Shown: piece after piece, positions 1,819-55,792 of the stretch
How positions within the stretch are numbered: the first letter of the stretch is position 1
Layout of the letters: every line of letters begins with the position of its first letter
DNA from: Planctomycetaceae bacterium
Lineage (GTDB): Bacteria; Planctomycetota; Planctomycetia; Planctomycetales; Planctomycetaceae
Direction: 5' to 3'
DNA: 64,000 nucleotides
Assembly: GCA_020426325.1 (NCBI GenBank)
Contig: JAGQQG010000029.1
Location: forward strand, 1-64,000
Made by a program: the position numbers and the translations under genes
Notes under the pieces: model-generated
Told to the model about the DNA's origin: nothing
Seen by the model: the letters and a program-made list of their open reading frames with translations, nothing else
Databases searched by the model: none

Positions 1819-1848
1819 TGGTCAGTCATTTTTGAAGATGTGAGTTTG

Positions 1849-1962
1849 GTGGCCGGGGCTGGAGGACGAAGTCCGAAGCCCCGGCGGTCGCGCATTCGAC
1901 ACTTGAGGTCCAGAACCCACTCACCGGGTCTTCCCTCCTGACGTCGGTCCAGCCTCGGCCAC
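1849..1962. repeat. palindromic repeat, family O, copy 1
   Basis: The left arm GGTGGCCGGGGCTGGAGG with a following AAGCCCCGG is mirrored, imperfectly, by CCGGGTCTTCCC and GGTCCAGCCTCGGCCAC on the right. It lies between the convergent barrel and helicase genes. The second copy sits in frame inside the ATP-grasp gene at 9396-9481. Confidence 0.6.
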
Positions 1963-1987
1963 TCGCAATCTCAATCCTGACTCTTCA

Positions 1988-5320: not shown

Positions 5321-5661
5321 AGAGTCCTCCCTGATAATCCTGAGTCAGTACGTCAAAAGTGTTCCGGGAACATCCCCTCGCTCGACGCTTGCGAGCGGCT
5401 CCCCGTCCGCTAAGTGCTCCAGTCAGTTCTGAGTGGCGCAGACGACAAGGGTAACGGATCATCCGCACGACGGACAGGCCTTTCTACCGGGATTTCCTCG
5501 GGCGATCGAGGTGAGGCGGGATTTCTCGTCTTGAAAAATCTCAGAAGCATTGAAAAGCTTCGGGCCGGACGAAACATCACAACTGCGATTCTCTCCGCTC
5601 GCCTGTGAACGAGTTGCTTCCTACAATCGTCGGGGCTAAATCACTCTTTGCTCAGCCGACC
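5321..5661. other. intergenic region between divergent genes, no gene seen
   Basis: This 341-bp gap separates the minus-strand helicase from the plus-strand LarA-like gene and must hold both promoters. No convincing -35/-10 pair, RNA gene or family palindrome is visible. An in-frame GTG at 5605 could extend the LarA-like protein by 19 residues, but the ATG at 5662 gives a better N-terminus. Confidence 0.5.
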
Positions 5662-6930
5662 ATGACGACTGCACCTTCCATTCTCTCCGACGACGACGTC
5701 CGCCGCTGGATCACGCAACATGTCCCTGCAGAGGACTTCGCGGGCAAACGCGTGTTGCTCGTGGTCCCTGACGCGACGCGTACCGCTCCCCTGCCCCTGT
5801 TGTTTGGAACGCTGTTCAAACACCTGCGTCCCGCTGTGGAAGCTCTGGACGTGATGGTCGCCCTGGGGACGCACCCCCCCATGTCTGAAACGGCGATCTG
5901 CAAAATGCTCGGCATCACCGATCAGGAGCGACACCGGTTGTTCCTGCAGACGCAGTTGCTGAATCACGAATGGGACCGTCCCGAAAGTCTCATGACCATC
6001 GGCACACTCACAAAGCAGGACACGGAAGATATCTCGGGGGGACTACTCTCGGTCGAAGTCCCGGTGCAGATCAATCGACACATCGCCGATTACGATATGC
6101 TGCTGATCATTGGCCCCGTGTTCCCGCACGAAGTCGTCGGATTCTCAGGCGGCAACAAGTACTTCTTCCCCGGCATCTCCGGTCCGGATCTGCTCAACTT
6201 CTTCCACTGGCTTGGTGCCCTCATCACCAACGTGGGGATCATCGGCGTGAAAGACACACCCGTGCGTCAGGTCGTCGAGCGAGCTGCCGCCATGATCCCC
6301 AACGAGACGCGAGCCCTCACGTTCGTTGTCGCCCCGGACGGCACTGCACGTCTGCATGGGCTCGCCTATGGAACCCCGACGGGTTCATGGAAAGAGTCGG
6401 CCGACCTCTCCGGGCAGGTACACATCAAGCTGATGCCGCGCCCGTTCCAGACGGTCCTCTCCTGCGCCCCGCTGATGTATGACGAACTCTGGGTCGCTGG
6501 CAAGTGCATGTATAAGCTGGAGCCCGTTGTCGCGGATGGAGGTGAACTGATCATCTACGCACCCCACATGAACGAGATTTCCGTCACGCACGGCAAGCTC
6601 ATCGAGGAAGTCGGGTATCATTGCCGCGACTACTTCACCGGCCAATGGGACAAGTTCAAGGACTACCCCTGGGGCGTCCTCGCTCACTCGACCCACGTCC
6701 GAGGCACGGGCACCTACGACAACGGCGTCGAACAGTGCCGCGTCAAAGTCACCCTCGCCTCCGGCATCCCGGAGGAAGTCTGCCACCGCATCAACCTCGG
6801 CTACCGCGACCCGGATACGATCGACGTCGAGTCATTCGCCAACCGAGAAGACGAAGGCATCCTGCTCATCCGCAAAGCGGGCGAACAACTCTACCGGCTC
6901 GAAGAAGGAGTCAGCACCGCTCACGAGTAG
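5662..6930 (+). CDS. LarA-like lactate racemase family protein (DUF2088)
   Basis: A 422-residue protein with the LarA fold signatures: PDATRTAPLP (about 36-45), ALGTHPPM (about 67), FPHEVVGFSGGNKYFFPGIS (about 154-173) and C-terminal SGIPEEVCHRINLGYRDPD. The histidines and lysine of these segments correspond to residues that hold the nickel-pincer cofactor or act in catalysis in lactate racemase. The planctomycete members have uncertain substrates; 2-hydroxyacid racemisation or epimerisation is the family expectation. No larB, larC or larE cofactor genes are nearby. The TAG stop at 6928-6930 is contributed by the first bases of palindrome A1. The ATG at 5662 is preferred over GTG 5605. It heads the co-directional run ending at 11245. 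Confidence 0.8.
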   Translation: MTTAPSILSDDDVRRWITQHVPAEDFAGKRVLLVVPDATRTAPLPLLFGTLFKHLRPAVEALDVMVALGTHPPMSETAICKMLGITDQERHRLFLQTQLLNHEWDRPESLMTIGTLTKQDTEDISGGLLSVEVPVQINRHIADYDMLLIIGPVFPHEVVGFSGGNKYFFPGISGPDLLNFFHWLGALITNVGIIGVKDTPVRQVVERAAAMIPNETRALTFVVAPDGTARLHGLAYGTPTGSWKESADLSGQVHIKLMPRPFQTVLSCAPLMYDELWVAGKCMYKLEPVVADGGELIIYAPHMNEISVTHGKLIEEVGYHCRDYFTGQWDKFKDYPWGVLAHSTHVRGTGTYDNGVEQCRVKVTLASGIPEEVCHRINLGYRDPDTIDVESFANREDEGILLIRKAGEQLYRLEEGVSTAHE

Positions 6931-6997
6931 CTGGATTCGCCAGAATTCAGCATTGCTAGCTCATGTCTTCTATCTGAACTCTGGCGAGTTCAGCTAC
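6927..6997. repeat. palindromic repeat, family A, copy 1
   Basis: A 71-bp inverted repeat: GTAGCTGGATTCGCCAGAA at the left, and CTCTGGCGAGTTCAGCTAC at the right. Each arm is itself a small hairpin (CTGAACT, CGCCAG loop, AGTTCAG in the consensus). The left end supplies the TAG stop of the preceding gene. Other copies lie at 10224, 16547 and 31165. Confidence 0.85.
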
Positions 6998-8260: not shown

Positions 8261-9235
8261 ATGTCACACCCCATTGAAAACGAACCGGTCCTCAACGAAC
8301 TCGCGTGGGCACTCGTGGAAGAGATCATCGTCTCTGCCGAGGATTTGCGTGTGCAGATGCATGAGACCTCCGCAGGAGGAACCGTCATCGATTTCGGTGT
8401 CGATGCTCTCGGTTCGCTCGCTGCGGGAATCGCCTTGTCCGAGGTCTGCATGGCCGGGCTAGCGGAGATTGAGCTCCAGCAGGGAACGCTCAACGGCATC
8501 GGCTGGCCGCAAGTGTTCGTCTCGACGGACGAACCACTGGCCGCGTGTCTGCTGAGCCAGTACGCCGGCTGGGCGGTGCAGGTCGGCAAATTCTTCGGGA
8601 TGGGGAGCGGCCCCATGCGCGCCGCCGCCGGAGCAGAGGAAATGTTCTCGCATCTCGACTATCACGAGGAGGCCGAGCAGGTTGTCGGCGTGCTGGAGAG
8701 CGGCAAGCTGCCGGGCGAGGATGTGATCATGATGATCGCTGAGAAATGCGGTGTCTCACCAAACAACGTGACACTGCTCGTGGCTCCGACTGCCTCAGTC
8801 GCCGGTTCGTTCCAGGTCGTGGCCCGTTCGGTCGAAACCTGTCTGCACAAGTTGCACGAATTGAAGTTCGATCTGACCCGCATCCGGAGTGCGGTCGGCT
8901 CGGCCCCGTTCGCTCCTGTGGCCGCCGACGATCTCGCAGGAATCGGACGAACCAACGATGCGATCCTGTATGGAGGTCGTGTCCATCTGTGGGTGACCGG
9001 AGATGATGAGTCGCTCGCGTCAATTGGCCCGAAGGTCCCCTCCTCTGCCTCGGAGGCTTACGGCGAGCCATTCGTCACAATCTTCGAGCAAGCGGGTCAT
9101 GACTTCTACGCCATCGACAAACTGCTGTTCTCCCCCGCCGAGGTCGTCTTCCAGAATGTCGACACAGGCCGTGTCCACGTCTTCGGCGGAACCGATGAGT
9201 CAGTCGTCGCAAAATCCTTCGGCATAGCTCGCTAA
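8261..9235 (+). CDS. mch: methenyltetrahydromethanopterin cyclohydrolase
   Basis: A 324-residue protein recognisable along its length as Mch: GGTVIDFGVDALGSLAAGI near residue 40, GIGWPQVFVSTDEPLAACLL near 80, FFGMGSGPMRA (about 112), an AGIGRTNDAILYGG block (about 230) and DFYAIDKLLFSPAEV near 285. Mch interconverts 5,10-methenyl- and 5-formyl-H4MPT in the archaeal-type C1 pathway that planctomycetes use for formaldehyde oxidation. The start at ATG 8261 is 4 bp after the hisN stop. An in-frame upstream start at 8174 would overlap hisN by 83 bp and adds no conserved sequence. The next gene, an ATP-grasp ligase, follows 11 bp later; RimK-like ligase next to mch is a recurring arrangement in H4MPT-using bacteria. 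Confidence 0.92.
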   Translation: MSHPIENEPVLNELAWALVEEIIVSAEDLRVQMHETSAGGTVIDFGVDALGSLAAGIALSEVCMAGLAEIELQQGTLNGIGWPQVFVSTDEPLAACLLSQYAGWAVQVGKFFGMGSGPMRAAAGAEEMFSHLDYHEEAEQVVGVLESGKLPGEDVIMMIAEKCGVSPNNVTLLVAPTASVAGSFQVVARSVETCLHKLHELKFDLTRIRSAVGSAPFAPVAADDLAGIGRTNDAILYGGRVHLWVTGDDESLASIGPKVPSSASEAYGEPFVTIFEQAGHDFYAIDKLLFSPAEVVFQNVDTGRVHVFGGTDESVVAKSFGIAR

Positions 9236-9246
9236 GGAGCCAAGCG

Positions 9247-10227
9247 ATGCTCATCGGTGTGCTGGGTAATGCGGACAGCTGGTATGTCGCCGACATCGAT
9301 CGGGCGAGCCGCGAACGAGGTCACGTTGCTCAAAGGATTGACTTCCGTAGCCTGACTGCATCAGAAGGAGTTGGTGCGAAGTCGATCATCCAGGGGGTGG
9401 CTGGGGCTGGAGCGACCAACGGGAGCGAAGCCCCGGAACCGATAAACACCGGGGCTTCCCTTCGGTCCAGCCCCGGCCACCCGTCTCCCTCCCATGCTGA
9501 TCTTGAGTCGCTGGATGCATTGATCGTCCGGACGATGCCGCCGGGGTCTCTGGAGCAGGTCGTGTTCCGCATGGATGTACTTGCCAGGCTGGAGGCAGCT
9601 GGCGTGCTGGTCATCAATGGGCCGAAGGCAATCGAGTGTGCGGTCGACAAGTATCTGGCGACGGCCAAGCTCGCGGGCCAAGGCCTGCCCGTGCCTCCGA
9701 CCATCGTGTGTCAGGACACCGAAGCGGGGATGGAAGCCTTCGACCAGCTCGGCGGAGACGTTGTCGTCAAGCCGCTGTTCGGGGCGGAGGGACGCGGTAT
9801 CGTGCGGGTCAGCGATCCGGATCTGGCGTTTCGGACATTTCGGGCAATCGAACGCATGCAATCAGTCTTGTACCTCCAGAAGTTTATTGAGCACGAGGGA
9901 TACGACATCCGCGTGCTCGTGCTGGGGGACGAGATCATTGGAGCCTTCAAGCGTCGTAACGCGAGCGACTTTCGCACGAACATGGCTCGGTCTGCCACAG
10001 GTGAGGTGCACGAACTGACGGACCGTGAGCGCGACATAGCCGTGCGAGCGGTGCAAGTCGCGGGTGCGACTTTCGGCGGCGTCGATCTGTTATATGATCG
10101 CAGCGGAGCGTGTTACGTGCTGGAGGTGAACGCAGTCCCCGGCTGGCGGGCGTTTCAGAGAGTGACGGGGATTGATGTGGGGGCGAAACTGGTCGCGTGG
10201 CTGGAGACACACATTGATATTAAGTAG
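9247..10227 (+). CDS. RimK-like ATP-grasp alpha-L-glutamate ligase (probable C1-cofactor ligase)
   Basis: A 326-residue ATP-grasp protein. The N-domain starts MLIGVLGNADSWYV and the ATP-grasp core has AVDKYLATAKLAGQGLPVPP near 137, VVKPLFGAEGRGIVRV (about 174), the hinge YLQKFIEHEGYDIRVLVLG near 217, FKRRNASDFRTNMARSA near 241 and the Mg-binding VLEVNAVPGWRAFQ (about 297). RimK-family enzymes add glutamate to proteins or cofactors. Beside mch it probably modifies H4MPT or methylofuran, which is an inference. Residues 50-79 are encoded by a palindromic repeat of family O, an in-frame insertion in the N-domain away from the catalytic core. The TAG stop is supplied by palindrome A2. Confidence 0.82.
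   Translation: MLIGVLGNADSWYVADIDRASRERGHVAQRIDFRSLTASEGVGAKSIIQGVAGAGATNGSEAPEPINTGASLRSSPGHPSPSHADLESLDALIVRTMPPGSLEQVVFRMDVLARLEAAGVLVINGPKAIECAVDKYLATAKLAGQGLPVPPTIVCQDTEAGMEAFDQLGGDVVVKPLFGAEGRGIVRVSDPDLAFRTFRAIERMQSVLYLQKFIEHEGYDIRVLVLGDEIIGAFKRRNASDFRTNMARSATGEVHELTDRERDIAVRAVQVAGATFGGVDLLYDRSGACYVLEVNAVPGWRAFQRVTGIDVGAKLVAWLETHIDIK
9396..9481. repeat. palindromic repeat, family O, copy 2, translated inside a gene
   Basis: An 86-bp imperfect palindrome: GGTGGCTGGGGCTGGA and AAGCCCCGG on the left, CCGGGGCTTCCC and GGTCCAGCCCCGGCCACC on the right. It lies wholly inside the ATP-grasp gene and keeps its frame open, adding about 30 Gly/Ala/Pro/Ser-rich residues. It matches the intergenic copy at 1849-1962. 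Confidence 0.8.
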
Positions 10228-10294
10228 CTGAACTCGCCAGAGTTCAGACAGATTGACGGTGGACGATGATCTGAATTCTGGCGAATTCAGCTAC
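10224..10294. repeat. palindromic repeat, family A, copy 2
   Basis: 71 bp, GTAGCTGAACTCGCCAGAG on the left and TTCTGGCGAATTCAGCTAC on the right. The first bases provide the TAG stop of the ATP-grasp gene. The next gene starts 18 bp after it. Confidence 0.88.
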
Positions 10295-16538: not shown

Positions 16539-16546
16539 AAGACTCC

Positions 16547-16616
16547 GTAGCTGAACTCGCCAGAGTTCAGACGCACGATTGAATTGACAGGGCTGAATTC
16601 TGGTGAATCCAGCTAC
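16547..16616. repeat. palindromic repeat, family A, copy 3
   Basis: 70 bp between the repressor and the M56 gene: GTAGCTGAACTCGCCAGAG on the left, TTCTGGTGAATCCAGCTAC on the right. It is placed 8 bp after the repressor stop, so it lies inside the presumed operon. Confidence 0.87.
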
Positions 16617-16654
16617 GTATTTGATGCGAAACACTGACATCCGGAGATCGAGGC

Positions 16655-19600
16655 ATGCCAACTCTCCCATCAGATATCCTCATCACGCTGCTCTCGAACG
16701 CCCTGCTCGTCGTTCCGCTGGCGATTGCGGTCGTCCTCATCTGCCGGTTCGTCAAACGACCAGCGGTCGCCTGGTGCCTCTGGGCTCTCGTCCTGTTGAA
16801 GTTCGTCACGCCCGCCTGGTATCCGCTGCCGGTGGAGGACATGACAACTCTGCTGACCGCGGCTGCACCGGATGAGCCGAGTGCATCAATCCCTCTGTCA
16901 GATGTGATGCTCACCAACTTGCCGCTGCCGGTTGCCGAACCGGAACCGGAGGTCCGCACCGAGCCGTCATTGCTCGAACAACTCGCAGCGTCCCAGTTGC
17001 GGGAGGCGCTGACAGCCCCGCCTCCGATGACGCCGGAGTTCTCCCTGCCGGACGAAGGGATGTCAACTAAGCCAATAATCGTCGAAACAGTCGAGTCTGA
17101 CGAGGACGTGACCATTGTTGAGACAGAGTTGGCATCAGATGACATCACATCACTGTCGGGTGGCATGGCGTCACGGCGACAGCCGGGTCGCCATGTGGTG
17201 ACGGCTCCCAACCAGCATGATCACCCGCCTGACGGCGTGAGAGCATGGCACCCGTCATGGGCCGATCTTTGGACTGAGCTGCCGAAGACACAGCTACTCG
17301 CGACGTTCTGGGCTGCGGGGAGTGTTGTGCTGATCGGGGTGACGCTGTTGCGGGTGCTTCGCTTTGGGCGACTCGTCCAGCGTGCTGAGCAGGCGTCGCC
17401 AGCCATCGTGGCTCGCGTTCATGACCTTGCTGCGAGGCTGGGATGTCGGCGTGTGCCCGATGTGCGTGTGACGTCTGCACGGGTACCGCCCCTGCTCTGG
17501 GCCGTCGGTCGACGTCCGGTCATTCTGCTCCCTTCAGCCCTGCTCGATCAGCTGGACGAGGAACAGACGGCTGCACTACTGACTCACGAACTGGCCCACT
17601 ATGTTCGCCGCGACCACTGGACCCGCTGGTTCGAGCAGGGGGTGTGCTGCCTGTACTGGTGGCATCCGGTCGCATGGTGGGCCGGTCATCGCCTGCGTGA
17701 AGCGGAGGAACAATGCTGCGACGCCCGCGTCGTCAGCCTCACCCCCGACGCGGCCCGCCCGTACGCTAACGCCCTGCTAACGACGATCGAATTCCTCAAT
17801 CCGCCCGACCACTCCGTCCCTGCACTCGCCAGCGGCATCACCCCCGTCCGCCGCTCGCTCCGCCCCTTCCACCGGAGACTGACCATGATCCTCGAAGACC
17901 GCCCGTCCCCCACCCTCACCTGGACCTCCCGCCTCAGCCTGCTGGCCGTGGCTGTCATCGTCCTGCCATTATCACTCGTCGCCATCGGCGACGATGAGGC
18001 TCCGGCCACTCCAGCGACAAGTGTGGAATCGCCAGACGAGATTTCAGGATTTGAGATTCGAGAATCTGAGACTTCAGATTCTGAAATCCTGAAATCCGAA
18101 ATCTCAAATCCAACCGAATCGACACCACGCGAGGAGATCACAACGGAAGACGATGACCAACCATCGTCCGATGAATCAACCGGCGACACCATCACCGTCG
18201 TACGTGCGTTCTATCCGATGCCGGAGGAGCTTGCGAAGGCGTTCCAGACGTTCATCGCATACCAAACACACTTCTTTGAAATCTTGAGCGCCACCGCTGA
18301 TTGGCGAGTTATTGAAGAGTCTGATGATTCCGAGGGCAACAGCCTGCCGGGCGGTGTTTTGGGGGGAGGCTTTGGTAGAGGTGTACGAAGAGGTCGACCG
18401 ATGCAGTCAGGCCTCACGCTCATTGCCAACGAGGACGTGCAGCAACATTTCGGGGACTTTATCCACGCTGTGACCGATGCCGCTTCAACACAGTCTGAGA
18501 ACGGTAAGGACACAGAGAGAATCACGCTGGTGCGAGAGTCGTATGATGTCGCTCGGATGGATGTGACGACTCATTCGGAAGATTTCGATTCGAAGAAGAT
18601 CGGGAATATCCTTGATGACCTTCTACAGGCAGTCAAAGCAACCAATCAGGTACAGTGGCTATTGCTCAAATCGCATGGCGGCCAACTCACTGTCACAACA
18701 ACTTCAGAGTTTCAGGAGGCGCTCGACAAGTTCATCGCCTTCCTCAAGGAGCGAGCACCAACCGATCGCGAACAGGAGGTGTCAGACCTGAACGATGTTC
18801 AGCGGAAGATCAAAGCAAAGATTCTGCTGGAGAATGCACGCCATAAACTGGAATGTAATGACTTCCTGGGGGCGAGGTTACTCGCCGAACAGGCTGAAGC
18901 GTTACATGCCAAATACGAATTGTTTGAAGATCGGCCCGAACTGGTTTTGAATGATCTGAGACTGAAAGAACAGGCTCCTGACCTCTCCGCTGGTTCGATT
19001 CGACAGGGGCCATCAAGTGGCAATGGCATCGGCGGAGTTGGCGGCATCGGGGGAGGTGTTTTTCGGGGCGACGGATTGTTCCCAGGAGCGAGTGGAGGGA
19101 ATCTGTTTGAGAGGTCAACAGGATCGCCACAACTCCCCTCTGTTCGACACGATGCAATGCTCACCCCCGATCAACAGTTAGCGTCGCTGCGGATGCAGGA
19201 GCAGATGATTGGGGCGGAGATTGCGTCGATTGAGCGGGCGATGGAGGCGGGCGCAAGTCGGGCGGCCCTGTCGCTGATGATCGGCCGCAAGTACGCCGAC
19301 AACGCCGTCACCCAGAAACTCGTCGAGACGCTCGCAGCCATGCTCGCATTGCAGCAGGAGAAAGCCGAGTTAATGAGCAGTCGTAGCGAGAAGCATCCCG
19401 ATGTAGTGCTGGTCACACAAAAACTCGAAGCCCTCCGCCAGTCCCTCGGCCTGCCCAAAGAGGACAACGGCCAACCCATCGACCTCGTCACCCTCCACCT
19501 GGAATCTTTGAGACTGCAACAACAGATGCTCAAAAACTCGATCGAGTCAATCCTGCCGAAAGACGGAGGAACGCCTTATTCGACAGACGAAGCCTCCTCG

Positions 19601-20443
19601 AACTCTGGAGGCCGAGACAACCAAAGTTCCACGGACGCGACAGAGATGACATCGCAACTTTATCGTAGATTGTCTGAACTGGTTGATCGCACGTCGCAAT
19701 TGGAACAGTCTCTGGGATCTAATGAACCTTCGATCACCTATCTCCATCAGGGTCTGAAGAAACTCCGACTAGGAATGATCGAGATGGATGAACAACTGGC
19801 AGTGAGAAAAGGAACCATGTATATGATCCGAGACGAACTTCAGAAGTATTCGGACTTGATCAAAGCAATGCAGAAACAGATCGAAGTAGAAGCACGCCAA
19901 GCTGAAGTCTCATCCAACGAAACCCAACTCGAGCGGCTCGACCGGGACATTCGCGATCTGGAAGCGAGAAGGAATCCCCGTGTCTCGTTCTACCGCGCTC
20001 TCAAGGACGGTCTGAAAGCGGGTGGAGAACTGGAAGCCGTGCGACGGGCGATGGCTTTGCTCAAATCCGATGAATACCGTCAACGCGGGCTCGAAGCAGG
20101 CTGGACCGCTGAAGACCTTGAGGCAAACATCTCATGGTTGCACTCACTGTTCGAGTTGATTGAGAAATATGAATTGCTACTCAGGGATCAGGATGCCGAA
20201 AAATCAGAGATTCGAAACCTTGATCAGCAGATTCGTCGTGACCTCAAGTTTTTTTGGGCTGGAAAACCGGTAGAAATTGAGCAAGGGTTCGTGAGGTCAC
20301 TCTACGAAGAAAGGCTCGACGGTGATTTTTGGATCGAGAAAGAGTTATGTCTTGAAGAAGAGCTGGAGAGCCTCAACAGCCAGAGGCGCGAACTGAAGCA
20401 AAACGATGATGACCCCAACGAGGAGGCCACAGTCACCGAATGA
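16655..20443 (+). CDS. M56/BlaR1-type membrane metallopeptidase with long coiled-coil extension
   Basis: A 1262-residue sensor-protease. Transmembrane helices lie at about 8-30 and 37-55, a third at about 212-228 (FWAAGSVVLIGVTLLRVL), and a fourth near 428-445 (LLAVAVIVLPLSLVAI). The gluzincin motif THELAHYVRRDH is at about 308-319, with a downstream EAEEQCCDA (about 349). Beyond residue 500 comes an unusual extension of about 750 residues: a Ser/Gly-rich stretch and long charged coiled coils. Residues about 167-202 and 462-486 are encoded by palindromic repeats (families F and E) kept in frame. Paired with the upstream BlaI-like repressor, it should sense an envelope signal and cleave the repressor; the signal is unknown. 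The TGA stop abuts repeat M. Confidence 0.85.
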   Translation: MPTLPSDILITLLSNALLVVPLAIAVVLICRFVKRPAVAWCLWALVLLKFVTPAWYPLPVEDMTTLLTAAAPDEPSASIPLSDVMLTNLPLPVAEPEPEVRTEPSLLEQLAASQLREALTAPPPMTPEFSLPDEGMSTKPIIVETVESDEDVTIVETELASDDITSLSGGMASRRQPGRHVVTAPNQHDHPPDGVRAWHPSWADLWTELPKTQLLATFWAAGSVVLIGVTLLRVLRFGRLVQRAEQASPAIVARVHDLAARLGCRRVPDVRVTSARVPPLLWAVGRRPVILLPSALLDQLDEEQTAALLTHELAHYVRRDHWTRWFEQGVCCLYWWHPVAWWAGHRLREAEEQCCDARVVSLTPDAARPYANALLTTIEFLNPPDHSVPALASGITPVRRSLRPFHRRLTMILEDRPSPTLTWTSRLSLLAVAVIVLPLSLVAIGDDEAPATPATSVESPDEISGFEIRESETSDSEILKSEISNPTESTPREEITTEDDDQPSSDESTGDTITVVRAFYPMPEELAKAFQTFIAYQTHFFEILSATADWRVIEESDDSEGNSLPGGVLGGGFGRGVRRGRPMQSGLTLIANEDVQQHFGDFIHAVTDAASTQSENGKDTERITLVRESYDVARMDVTTHSEDFDSKKIGNILDDLLQAVKATNQVQWLLLKSHGGQLTVTTTSEFQEALDKFIAFLKERAPTDREQEVSDLNDVQRKIKAKILLENARHKLECNDFLGARLLAEQAEALHAKYELFEDRPELVLNDLRLKEQAPDLSAGSIRQGPSSGNGIGGVGGIGGGVFRGDGLFPGASGGNLFERSTGSPQLPSVRHDAMLTPDQQLASLRMQEQMIGAEIASIERAMEAGASRAALSLMIGRKYADNAVTQKLVETLAAMLALQQEKAELMSSRSEKHPDVVLVTQKLEALRQSLGLPKEDNGQPIDLVTLHLESLRLQQQMLKNSIESILPKDGGTPYSTDEASSNSGGRDNQSSTDATEMTSQLYRRLSELVDRTSQLEQSLGSNEPSITYLHQGLKKLRLGMIEMDEQLAVRKGTMYMIRDELQKYSDLIKAMQKQIEVEARQAEVSSNETQLERLDRDIRDLEARRNPRVSFYRALKDGLKAGGELEAVRRAMALLKSDEYRQRGLEAGWTAEDLEANISWLHSLFELIEKYELLLRDQDAEKSEIRNLDQQIRRDLKFFWAGKPVEIEQGFVRSLYEERLDGDFWIEKELCLEEELESLNSQRRELKQNDDDPNEEATVTE
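17155..17260. repeat. palindromic repeat, family F, copy 1, translated inside the M56 gene
   Basis: GGTGGCATGGCGTCACGGCG with CAGCCGGGTCGCCATG is mirrored by CATGATCACCCGCCTGACGG and GTGAGAGCATGGCACCC. It is about 106 bp, entirely inside the open frame between the second and third membrane segments. The left half closely matches the intergenic copy at 22236-22330. Confidence 0.75.
18039..18110. repeat. short repeat cluster, family E, translated inside the M56 gene
   Basis: Tandem near-palindromic units built on ATTTCAGATT/GAAATC (GAGATTTCAGGATTTGAG, CTTCAGATTCTGAAATCC, GAAATCCGAAATCTCAAATC) are read in frame as an ESE/SEI-rich acidic linker. The same unit flanks the gene at 25704 and lies before gcvPA. 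Confidence 0.6.
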
Positions 20444-20519: not shown

Positions 20520-20531
20520 TTCTTCCTTATT

Positions 20532-20690: not shown

Positions 20691-21203
20691 TTATTCGACC
20701 CACTGGATGGGGATGCCGACCGGCTTTCGCAGTTCGTACCATCGGGCCGAACTCCAGGGCCAATCAATCGCTCGGCTGACCAGGCCGGCTCGGACTGGAT
20801 TCATGTGCATGTAGACCAGCTTCTCTTCAAGTTTTTCCTGCTCGTAAATCTCAAACGCGTGATATCTCGGTGTCCAGAACCGATCTCCGATGTCTGCATC
20901 GTCGAAGTAGTGCAGTTTCTTTTGGCAATACCATTCGCGAATCGACCTGCTCGACGATCGCTTCCACTCATGCATGAAACCGCTGAGGCGTCCGGGTTCC
21001 GGAAACCAAACGAGAACATGGACGTGGTCCGGCATAATCACAAAACCAACGCACTTACCGTTAATGCGTCGCAACTCTTGGGAGAGCGTGCCGAGCACGA
21101 TGCGTTTTGGCTGATCGAGCGAGAGGAGCTTTCGCCGGCGGTCGCATGCAAAGGTGACGAAATGGGTGTAGAGTTGATCGTCGATGATGCGGCGACTGTT
21201 CAT
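20691..21203 (-). CDS. REP-associated tyrosine transposase (RayT 1)
   Basis: A 170-residue Y1/HUH transposase. FVTFACDRRRKLL opens the fold, and VIMPDHVHVLVWFPEPGRLS carries the HxH metal site (about 60). FWTPRYHAFEIYEQ near 125 offers the nucleophilic tyrosine, and YMHMNPVRAGLVSRAIDWPW near 143 with SSARWYEL are RayT hallmarks. RayTs nick and move REP palindromes as single strands. Two family-B palindromes flank the gene at 18 and 37 bp, and three more B copies lie within 10 kb, so B is its likely substrate. The gene appears intact. Confidence 0.9.
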   Translation of the reverse strand: MNSRRIIDDQLYTHFVTFACDRRRKLLSLDQPKRIVLGTLSQELRRINGKCVGFVIMPDHVHVLVWFPEPGRLSGFMHEWKRSSSRSIREWYCQKKLHYFDDADIGDRFWTPRYHAFEIYEQEKLEEKLVYMHMNPVRAGLVSRAIDWPWSSARWYELRKPVGIPIQWVE

Positions 21204-40025: not shown

Positions 40026-40676
40026 ATGCCGATGACCGAACCTGTCCATTTCGGGGCATTTGATCCTCACGCAGAAGTCGAAAGAACCTACCGGAATCTG
40101 CCTCACTGGTTTCAACTCGGAGTGGCCACCTTCATCACCTTTCGTACGGCCGACTCACTTCCCCAAGCTGTGCTTCGACAGTTTGAGCGAGGACAGCAGG
40201 ACTGGCTCAACCGTCACGGAACTCACATGGCGGATTTGGCAAGTCATTCAGATCTCGACCGGGAATTCCGGAGATACCGTGATCGTCAATGGCATGGTCA
40301 TCTTGATCGAGGCTACGGCGAGTGCGTGTTGAAAAGACCGGATGTTGCGGCCATCGTTGGAGACTCACTGCGATTTTTTGAAGGAGACCGGTATGACCTG
40401 GACTCGTTTATCGTGATGCCCAATCACGTTCACGTCCTCGTCCAATTCCGTCACCCCACGACTTTGCGACAGCAGACACGTAGCTGGCTCCAATACACAG
40501 CGAGACGTATCAACGAACTCATCGGTGCCCGAGGTCCGTTCTGGCAGAGCGAGTAATTCGATCATCTGGTTCGCAGCCCGGAGCAATTTTCGTATTTGCA
40601 GCGATACATCGCTGAGAATCCCGTGAAAGCCCTCTTGGCAGATGGAATGTTTCTTTACTGGAGCCGTGAAACGTAA
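40026..40676 (+). pseudogene. REP-associated transposase RayT 2, interrupted by an in-frame TAA
   Basis: A RayT frame of about 216 codons broken at codon 177 by TAA (40554-40556). Before it: FQLGVATFITFRTADSLPQA near 29, the HxH motif SFIVMPNHVHVLVQFRHP (about 125-142) and ARGPFWQSE. After it the same frame continues FDHLVRSPEQFSYLQRYI and AENPVKALLADGMFLYWS to a natural stop. The lesion falls inside the conserved FWQxE-x-[FY]DH block, at or beside the usual catalytic tyrosine. A single base change explains it. Exact inverted REPs (family P) flank it, so decay is recent. Confidence 0.87.
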
Positions 40677-55164: not shown

Positions 55165-55194
55165 TCGGAGTTCATTGGATGACTGGATGATGTC

Positions 55195-55255: not shown

Positions 55256-55792
55256 ATGGCAAGAACACGCTACAAGGTCTGCGAGAACGCGTCCCCCCAT
55301 TTCATGACATGTACAATTGTCGGATGGCTTCCAATCTTTACACGACAGGAATTTGTTAACGAAGTCATCAAGTCATGGCGATTCCTTCAACGCGAAAGAG
55401 ACTTCAAGCTTTTCGCGTATGTCATTCTGGAAAACCACCTGCACCTGATTGCGTCGGCACCTGAACTCGCGGACGCCATGAAGTCATTCAAATCGTATAC
55501 GGCTCGAAGGATCATCGATCGGTTGAAGGAACTGTCCGCAACGACTCTGCTCGATCAGCTACGTGCTCACAAGCTCCGCCACAAAATCAACAGCGAGTTT
55601 CAAGTGTGGCAAGAGGGGATTCATGCTCAGCAGATTGAAAGCGAAGACGTGATGTGGCAGAAGATCGAATACATTCATAATAACCCCGTGAAGCGGGGGT
55701 ACATTGAGGATCCGGTTCACTGGCGGTATTCCAGTGCTCGCAACTATGCCGGTCTGCCAGGGTTGATTGATGTCGTCACGGATTGGAGGTGA
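55256..55792 (+). CDS. REP-associated tyrosine-transposase-like protein (RayT 3)
   Basis: A 178-residue HUH-type protein. FMTCTIVGWLPIFTRQEFVN opens the fold, and YVILENHLHLIASAPELADA near 60 holds the HxH metal site in an ENHLHL variant. Its C-terminal region FQVWQEGIHAQQI, IEYIHNNPVKRGYI and WRYSSARNYAGLPG is typical of the subgroup with WQEG-x-H. In this subgroup the tyrosine is not in the usual FWxxxY position, so the nucleophile is uncertain. It starts 7 bp after the left REPs. It is inserted between the two ABC-exporter genes. Confidence 0.85.
   Translation: MARTRYKVCENASPHFMTCTIVGWLPIFTRQEFVNEVIKSWRFLQRERDFKLFAYVILENHLHLIASAPELADAMKSFKSYTARRIIDRLKELSATTLLDQLRAHKLRHKINSEFQVWQEGIHAQQIESEDVMWQKIEYIHNNPVKRGYIEDPVHWRYSSARNYAGLPGLIDVVTDWR

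Follow-up and report, generated by a model that had tools for sequence, protein, structure and literature searches.

Palindromes that are translated in frame within unrelated functional genes, and that also occur between genes, have their classic parallel in the palindromic elements (RPEs) of Rickettsia, where the resulting loop measures about 30 residues. GTAG/CGTC REPs are likewise short palindromes, mostly intergenic, that also occur in frame in genes (Di Nocera et al. 2013, PMC3733652). Dimers and grouped repeats that code for 20–30 residues account for the majority of the intragenic cases, whose known hosts include Opitutus terrae (a verrucomicrobium of the PVC group), Rickettsia conorii and Thauera. 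Two Xanthomonas species have different REPs at approximately one site of recB, and GTAG REPs can supply TAG stop codons (PMC3733652). Two tagged hairpins in inverted orientation, separated by a spacer, make up the REPINs and BIMEs associated with RAYT transposases (PMC3116915, PMC8266576).

Here, we compare with these systems a palindrome, of a family referred to as family O, in an ATP-grasp ligase gene of a Planctomycetaceae bacterium. The gene lies in a stretch of 64,000 nucleotides (the window; assembly GCA_020426325.1, contig JAGQQG010000029.1). The source genome is labelled G000; its congeners include the closest sister species, G001 (MAG HKST-UBA51), as well as G002, G003 (ACE_PLA27) and G004 (OFTM22).

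The family-O palindrome and its dispersal

The palindrome has the position and length given for it in an earlier note on this DNA (Table 1). Its 86-nt stem is nearly perfect and is extended by a G-C pair at 9395/9482. Folded as RNA, it reaches −63.2 kcal/mol, whereas 200 shuffled sequences average −35.1 and include none that folds as well (z −8.3); for the DNA fold, z is −7.3. An Rfam scan of positions 1–30000 of the window matched no known RNA family. The in-frame translation, VAGAGATNGSEAPEPINTGASLRSSPGH, comprises 28 full codons and is rich in Gly, Ala, Ser and Pro; the earlier note had estimated an addition of about 30 residues, and the net gain over two congeners without the insert is 25 or 26.

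Table 1. Features of the window discussed in the text
Feature	Position	Strand	Evidence or remarks
Intergenic full-length family-O copy, ~115 nt	1848–1963	+	longer spacer; 93% identical to family consensus
mch, methenyltetrahydromethanopterin cyclohydrolase, upstream neighbor of ligase	8264–9235	+	PF02289 E 2e-127; TIGR03120
RimK/MptN-like ATP-grasp ligase ORF, insert-bearing, 326 aa	9247–10227	+	PF08443 RimK E 2e-33
Family-O palindrome, read as residues 51–78 (codons 9397–9480)	9396–9481	+	fold, ORF translation, dispersed copies, G001 counterpart
Left half, REP-like unit: GTGG, then hairpin closed by CTGGGGCT / AGCCCCGG	9397–9436	+	DNA fold
Apical spacer AACCGATAAACA	9437–9448	+	holds many of the G000/G001 differences
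Right half, inverted: GTGG, then hairpin closed by CCGGGGCT / AGCCCCGG	9449–9480	−	DNA fold
GTAG-tagged palindrome abutting ligase gene	10224–10294	+	its GTAG gives the TAG stop codon (10225–10227)
Y1_Tnp (RAYT-type) gene	20826–21176	−	between copies of a 145-nt palindromic family at 20531 and 21239
Y1_Tnp (RAYT-type) gene	40389–40616	+	followed after ~0.8 kb by a 46-nt repeat; stop codon within the match
Y1_Tnp (RAYT-type) gene	55334–55540	+	between palindromic repeat copies CGTTCCCAAAC...GTTTGGGAACG at 55194 and 55825

Family O has the plan of a REP dimer (REPIN/BIME), with GTGG in place of the usual GTAG: two inverted units flank a spacer, and single units occur as well (loci L018, L025, L026 and L007). 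When the halves are folded separately, the right one does better than its shuffles and the left one no better, so that the left half's own fold is weak. GTGG is present in nearly all family-O copies, and neither GTAG nor CGTC, the tags that define GTAG/CGTC REPs, serves as the tag of the family. Full copies measure about 111–117 nt and single halves 33–40 nt; the coding copy departs from the family consensus by its shorter spacer of 12 nt.

As is typical of REPs, the family is present in many copies, mainly intergenic. BLAST located it at more than 20 places in G000, and 9, 9 and 25 matches were obtained in G001, G002 and G004, respectively; these genome-wide numbers come from sequence searches. 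Full-length copies are present in all three of these sister species, and shorter relatives in other genera. The copy that the earlier note had placed between genes at 1849 is indeed intergenic (Table 1). Upstream of the copies, G or GG is frequent, with no clear motif beyond this. Among 18 copies checked for open reading frames, two lie inside real genes and are read in different frames. Besides the ligase insert, the other is the single unit that an FtsK/SpoIIIE-type ATPase gene of G000 (L007 1501–1533, G000:C385) contains, read as GWPGLDQREAPE. Upstream of this unit, a repeat-like stretch, NPQPSTLNPH, is likewise in frame in the ATPase, which suggests that translated repeats are not rare in G000. 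The window also holds a translated palindrome-like repeat, GATTTCAGGATTTGAGATTC..., at 18038–18105; it is read as EISGFEIRESETSDSEILKSEISNP within a BlaR1/M56 peptidase-type protein (ORF 16625–20440), in one of its linkers.

Since the stop codon of the ligase gene is supplied by a GTAG palindrome (Table 1), the gene, with its family-O insert, has been shaped by two different palindrome families. The GTAG palindrome, GTAGCTGAACTCGCCAGAGTTCAG..., has a second copy at 6927–6997, positioned exactly at a gene end, with its TAG as the stop of ORF 5605–6930, and a third at 16546–16617.

The host enzyme and its orthologues

The ligase scores 199.8 against TIGR00768, above the curated cut-off of 143.4, and therefore belongs to the RimK family. 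Its best equivalog is NF040720 (MptN), with 226 bits; this is below the 350-bit cut-off, which the ligase of an insert-free congener also misses. The predicted structure matches solved RimK structures (PDB 5zct, TM 0.76) and has the ATP-grasp fold. As the earlier note had stated, the gene is linked to mch, which directly precedes it. The "archaeal-like" C1 gene cluster of Methylorubrum extorquens encodes the ATP-grasp enzyme Orf5, identified as MyfB, a polyglutamate ligase for methylofuran (PMC8141765). By analogy, we infer that the planctomycete ligase may act on the same substrate. Outside the insert, dN/dS between G000 and G001 is 0.07, indicating purifying selection and hence a gene that is not in decay.

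The same family-O element is found at the same junction in the ligase gene of G001. The ligases of G003 and G004 have no insert and are 25–26 residues shorter across the linker, and the rest of the ligase family likewise has no family-O segment there; G001, the sole congener sharing the segment, has the palindrome itself, whereas the earlier note would have been contradicted by the same segment in orthologues from genomes without family O. Profile HMMs run through the linker in the insert-free protein of G004 (L030, residues 6–292) and start only at about residue 82 in the insert-bearing proteins. The linker on either side of the insert aligns poorly with the empty sites, so that the boundaries of the insertion can be given only approximately. 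There is virtually no doubt that a repeat has been inserted in frame here. The description of the enzyme as otherwise canonical holds for its ATP-grasp part, but not for the linker carrying the insert, which varies in length throughout the family.

An AlphaFold model (30 orthologues) has a mean pLDDT of 85.5, with values below 50 for residues 55–78, between the N-domain strands 47–53 and 82–85. As to the earlier note's question of whether the insert forms a surface loop, the model predicts a disordered tip that lies between two strands and outside the ATP-grasp domain. The insert is very likely translated and tolerated as a disordered loop.

Unrelated repeats in the same linker

Inspection of the ligase linker in related genomes revealed several other repeats. 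In G002, a GTAG palindrome, found at about 40 places in that genome, is followed by a second palindrome, which is dispersed in G000 and G001. Another GTAG palindrome is present in the linker of G181, a Schlesneria relative, with partial copies elsewhere in G181, of which one (L220) is a full palindrome. Six species of genus g56 carry a CCCTCACCCTAGCCCTCTCCC repeat, read as GSLTLALSQGERG; within the same genus, the linker of G155 contains a degenerate member of a family of perfect 64-nt palindromes with about 30 matches, and that of G159 a AGAGGAAT-type repeat with about 50. The linker of G039 holds an array of the heptamer AATCCAA, present at 34 exact places as compared with 0 for the reversed pattern. 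The long linker of G182 (108 nt) has no dispersed match; since it is not a dispersed repeat, linker length alone is no proof of a repeat.

These dispersal searches covered linker inserts only and are by themselves no measure of enrichment; the long linkers of several Schlesneria and of G019, G040 and G042 lay outside them. Enrichment was measured by an unbiased scan of the ligase gene in 86 orthologues (78,249 bp in total). It found three strong inverted repeats, all in the linker (8,277 bp) and none elsewhere, an outcome with a probability of about 0.001 under an even spread. When the linker is left out of the tree, the five labelled repeat types call for five separate changes. On the evidence of the sequences, the linker is an independent capture site of at least six unrelated dispersed repeats in addition to family O, that is, at least seven in all. 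The earlier reading of a palindrome inserted in the ligase gene is supported, but it had missed both the GTGG-tagged, REP-dimer build of the element and the recurrence of unrelated repeats at the linker, so that capture is not peculiar to family O.

Origin of the insertions and relation to known repeats

To account for these observations, we propose that a non-autonomous, REP/REPIN-like repeat of 86 nt, consisting of two inverted GTGG-tagged hairpins, entered the ligase gene, most simply in a common ancestor of the G000 species and its sister G001. Its target would have been the DNA coding for the tip between two N-domain strands of the mch-linked glutamate ligase. By luck, the reading frame would have stayed open, yielding a disordered loop of 28 residues rich in Gly, Ala, Ser and Pro, and as this loop would lie away from the ATP-grasp catalytic domain, the ligase would have kept working. 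A loop that tolerates almost any insertion would also have made possible the independent captures of at least six other, unrelated repeats at the same place in relatives; since the captured families are unrelated, such tolerance would be the simplest common cause. We hold this account as a whole, with its inserted repeat, tolerated disordered loop, working enzyme and permissive linker, to be highly probable. The insertions are most likely selfish or passive events tolerated by a permissive loop. On this account, the O loop would be dispensable and its arrival neutral.

The mover would have been a RAYT-type Y1 transposase or a repair process that spreads REPs. That a RAYT moved the element has, in our judgment, an even chance, the two grounds being the plan of the element and the presence of Y1 transposases. 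G000 has 11 Y1_Tnp/RAYT matches, none flanked by family O in the stretches taken, and a search for O arms around the Y1 transposases of G000, G001 and G002 found no cognate RAYT. In one G001 gene (L070), a degenerate O copy lies some 180 nt upstream, but the gene makes an unconvincing candidate, as the hairpins flanking it are different ones. This gene (L070 1300–1986, G001:C159) is itself flanked by GTGG-tagged hairpins, GTGGCCCTGGTTGCTTGCCAACCAGGG, and thus constitutes a REP/transposase unit tagged GTGG, not GTAG.

It is hardly conceivable that there was no insertion. Both genomes are draft assemblies (424 and ~300 contigs), which could raise the suspicion of an assembly error, but the same element and junction are present in the independently assembled sister genome, with the frame intact in both; a chance palindrome is rejected by the comparison with shuffles and by the dispersed copies. 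At least seven captures in one linker, and the location there of all strong inverted repeats among the 86 orthologues, might also be taken to mean that the linker is a true target hotspot, where transposition machinery recognizes a sequence or structure in the gene, as opposed to selection merely sparing insertions. We regard this as very unlikely: GTGG palindromes, GTAG palindromes, direct repeats and a heptamer array have no relationship to one another, they lie at different points of a linker whose flanking sequence is not conserved, and the upstream flanks of the O copies have little in common.

The conservation of the insert calls for closer consideration. G000 and G001 differ at 12 of 84 positions of the insert as compared with 32 of 75 positions of the linker around it (p 8e-5). 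Their synonymous divergence is likewise lower within the insert (0.19) than over the remaining gene (0.60; p 4e-4), which a simple neutral story does not explain. In genus g56, pN is 0.07 in the repeat core and 0.26 in the flanking linker, and a protein-level role of that core is possible. Such values could mean that the insert has been put to use and the loop kept by selection, either at the protein level (a contact, stability or an oligomer interface) or at the nucleic-acid level, as an intragenic mRNA hairpin tuning ligase expression. The deficit between G000 and G001, however, is in synonymous and not in amino-acid changes, arguing against constraint on the protein; moreover, the loop is predicted to be disordered, and the peptides from different repeat families share nothing. 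An orthologous intergenic family-O copy (L101, G001:C246; L006, G000:C35), complete in G001 but with a single arm left in G000, is equally conserved, with about 45 of 46 positions of the arm identical as counted by eye beside unalignable flanks, so that conservation seems to be a property of the element and not of the ligase protein. We therefore consider use of the insert unlikely; the low divergence may stem from recombination between species, from gene conversion among the copies or from constraint on the hairpin. Somewhat less unlikely, though still doubtful, is a wider view in which the N-domain loop of the planctomycete mch-linked glutamate ligase is a standing landing pad that turns a changing set of short repeats into protein, with some loops (the "SLTLALSQGERG" segment of g56 and the O loop) held by selection or concerted evolution after capture. 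If this were true, such repeat-derived loops would represent a step toward the domestication of repeats as protein parts.

With seven or more unrelated repeats captured by one loop of one enzyme, and sister species free of repeats available for comparison, nature has in effect run a replicated experiment. It allows a direct test of two questions, namely whether the enzyme simply tolerates translated repeats and whether a repeat, once captured, becomes useful. The finding also places translated REP-like elements in planctomycetes and shows that differences in loop length between orthologues can reveal them. None of the papers searched describes such repeat capture in a planctomycete ligase loop.

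The comparison with Rickettsia palindromic elements drawn in the earlier note is fair as far as the mode of action is concerned. As with RPEs, an in-frame palindrome is present in a functional gene of which orthologues without it are intact, and intergenic copies exist. The host phylum, in contrast, is unrelated, and only 2 of the 18 copies examined are in real genes, in different frames. With REPINs and BIMEs, family O shares the two inverted tagged hairpins with a spacer, the occurrence of single units and the presence in the genome of Y1/RAYT genes, of which the three in the window lie near their own palindromes; it differs in its GTGG tag and in that the search around Y1 transposases found no cognate RAYT. 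Like GTAG/CGTC REPs, family O consists of short, mainly intergenic palindromes that also occur in frame inside genes; unlike them, it is tagged GTGG, its host gene encodes an mch-linked ATP-grasp ligase, and the single linker concerned has received seven or more unrelated repeats, not all of which are palindromes. REPs, including the published intragenic ones, are thus a closer precedent than RPEs alone. Translation of REPs within genes was known; what is new is that REP-like elements tagged GTGG occur in the ligase of a planctomycete, and that the loop concerned has accommodated at least seven unrelated repeats.
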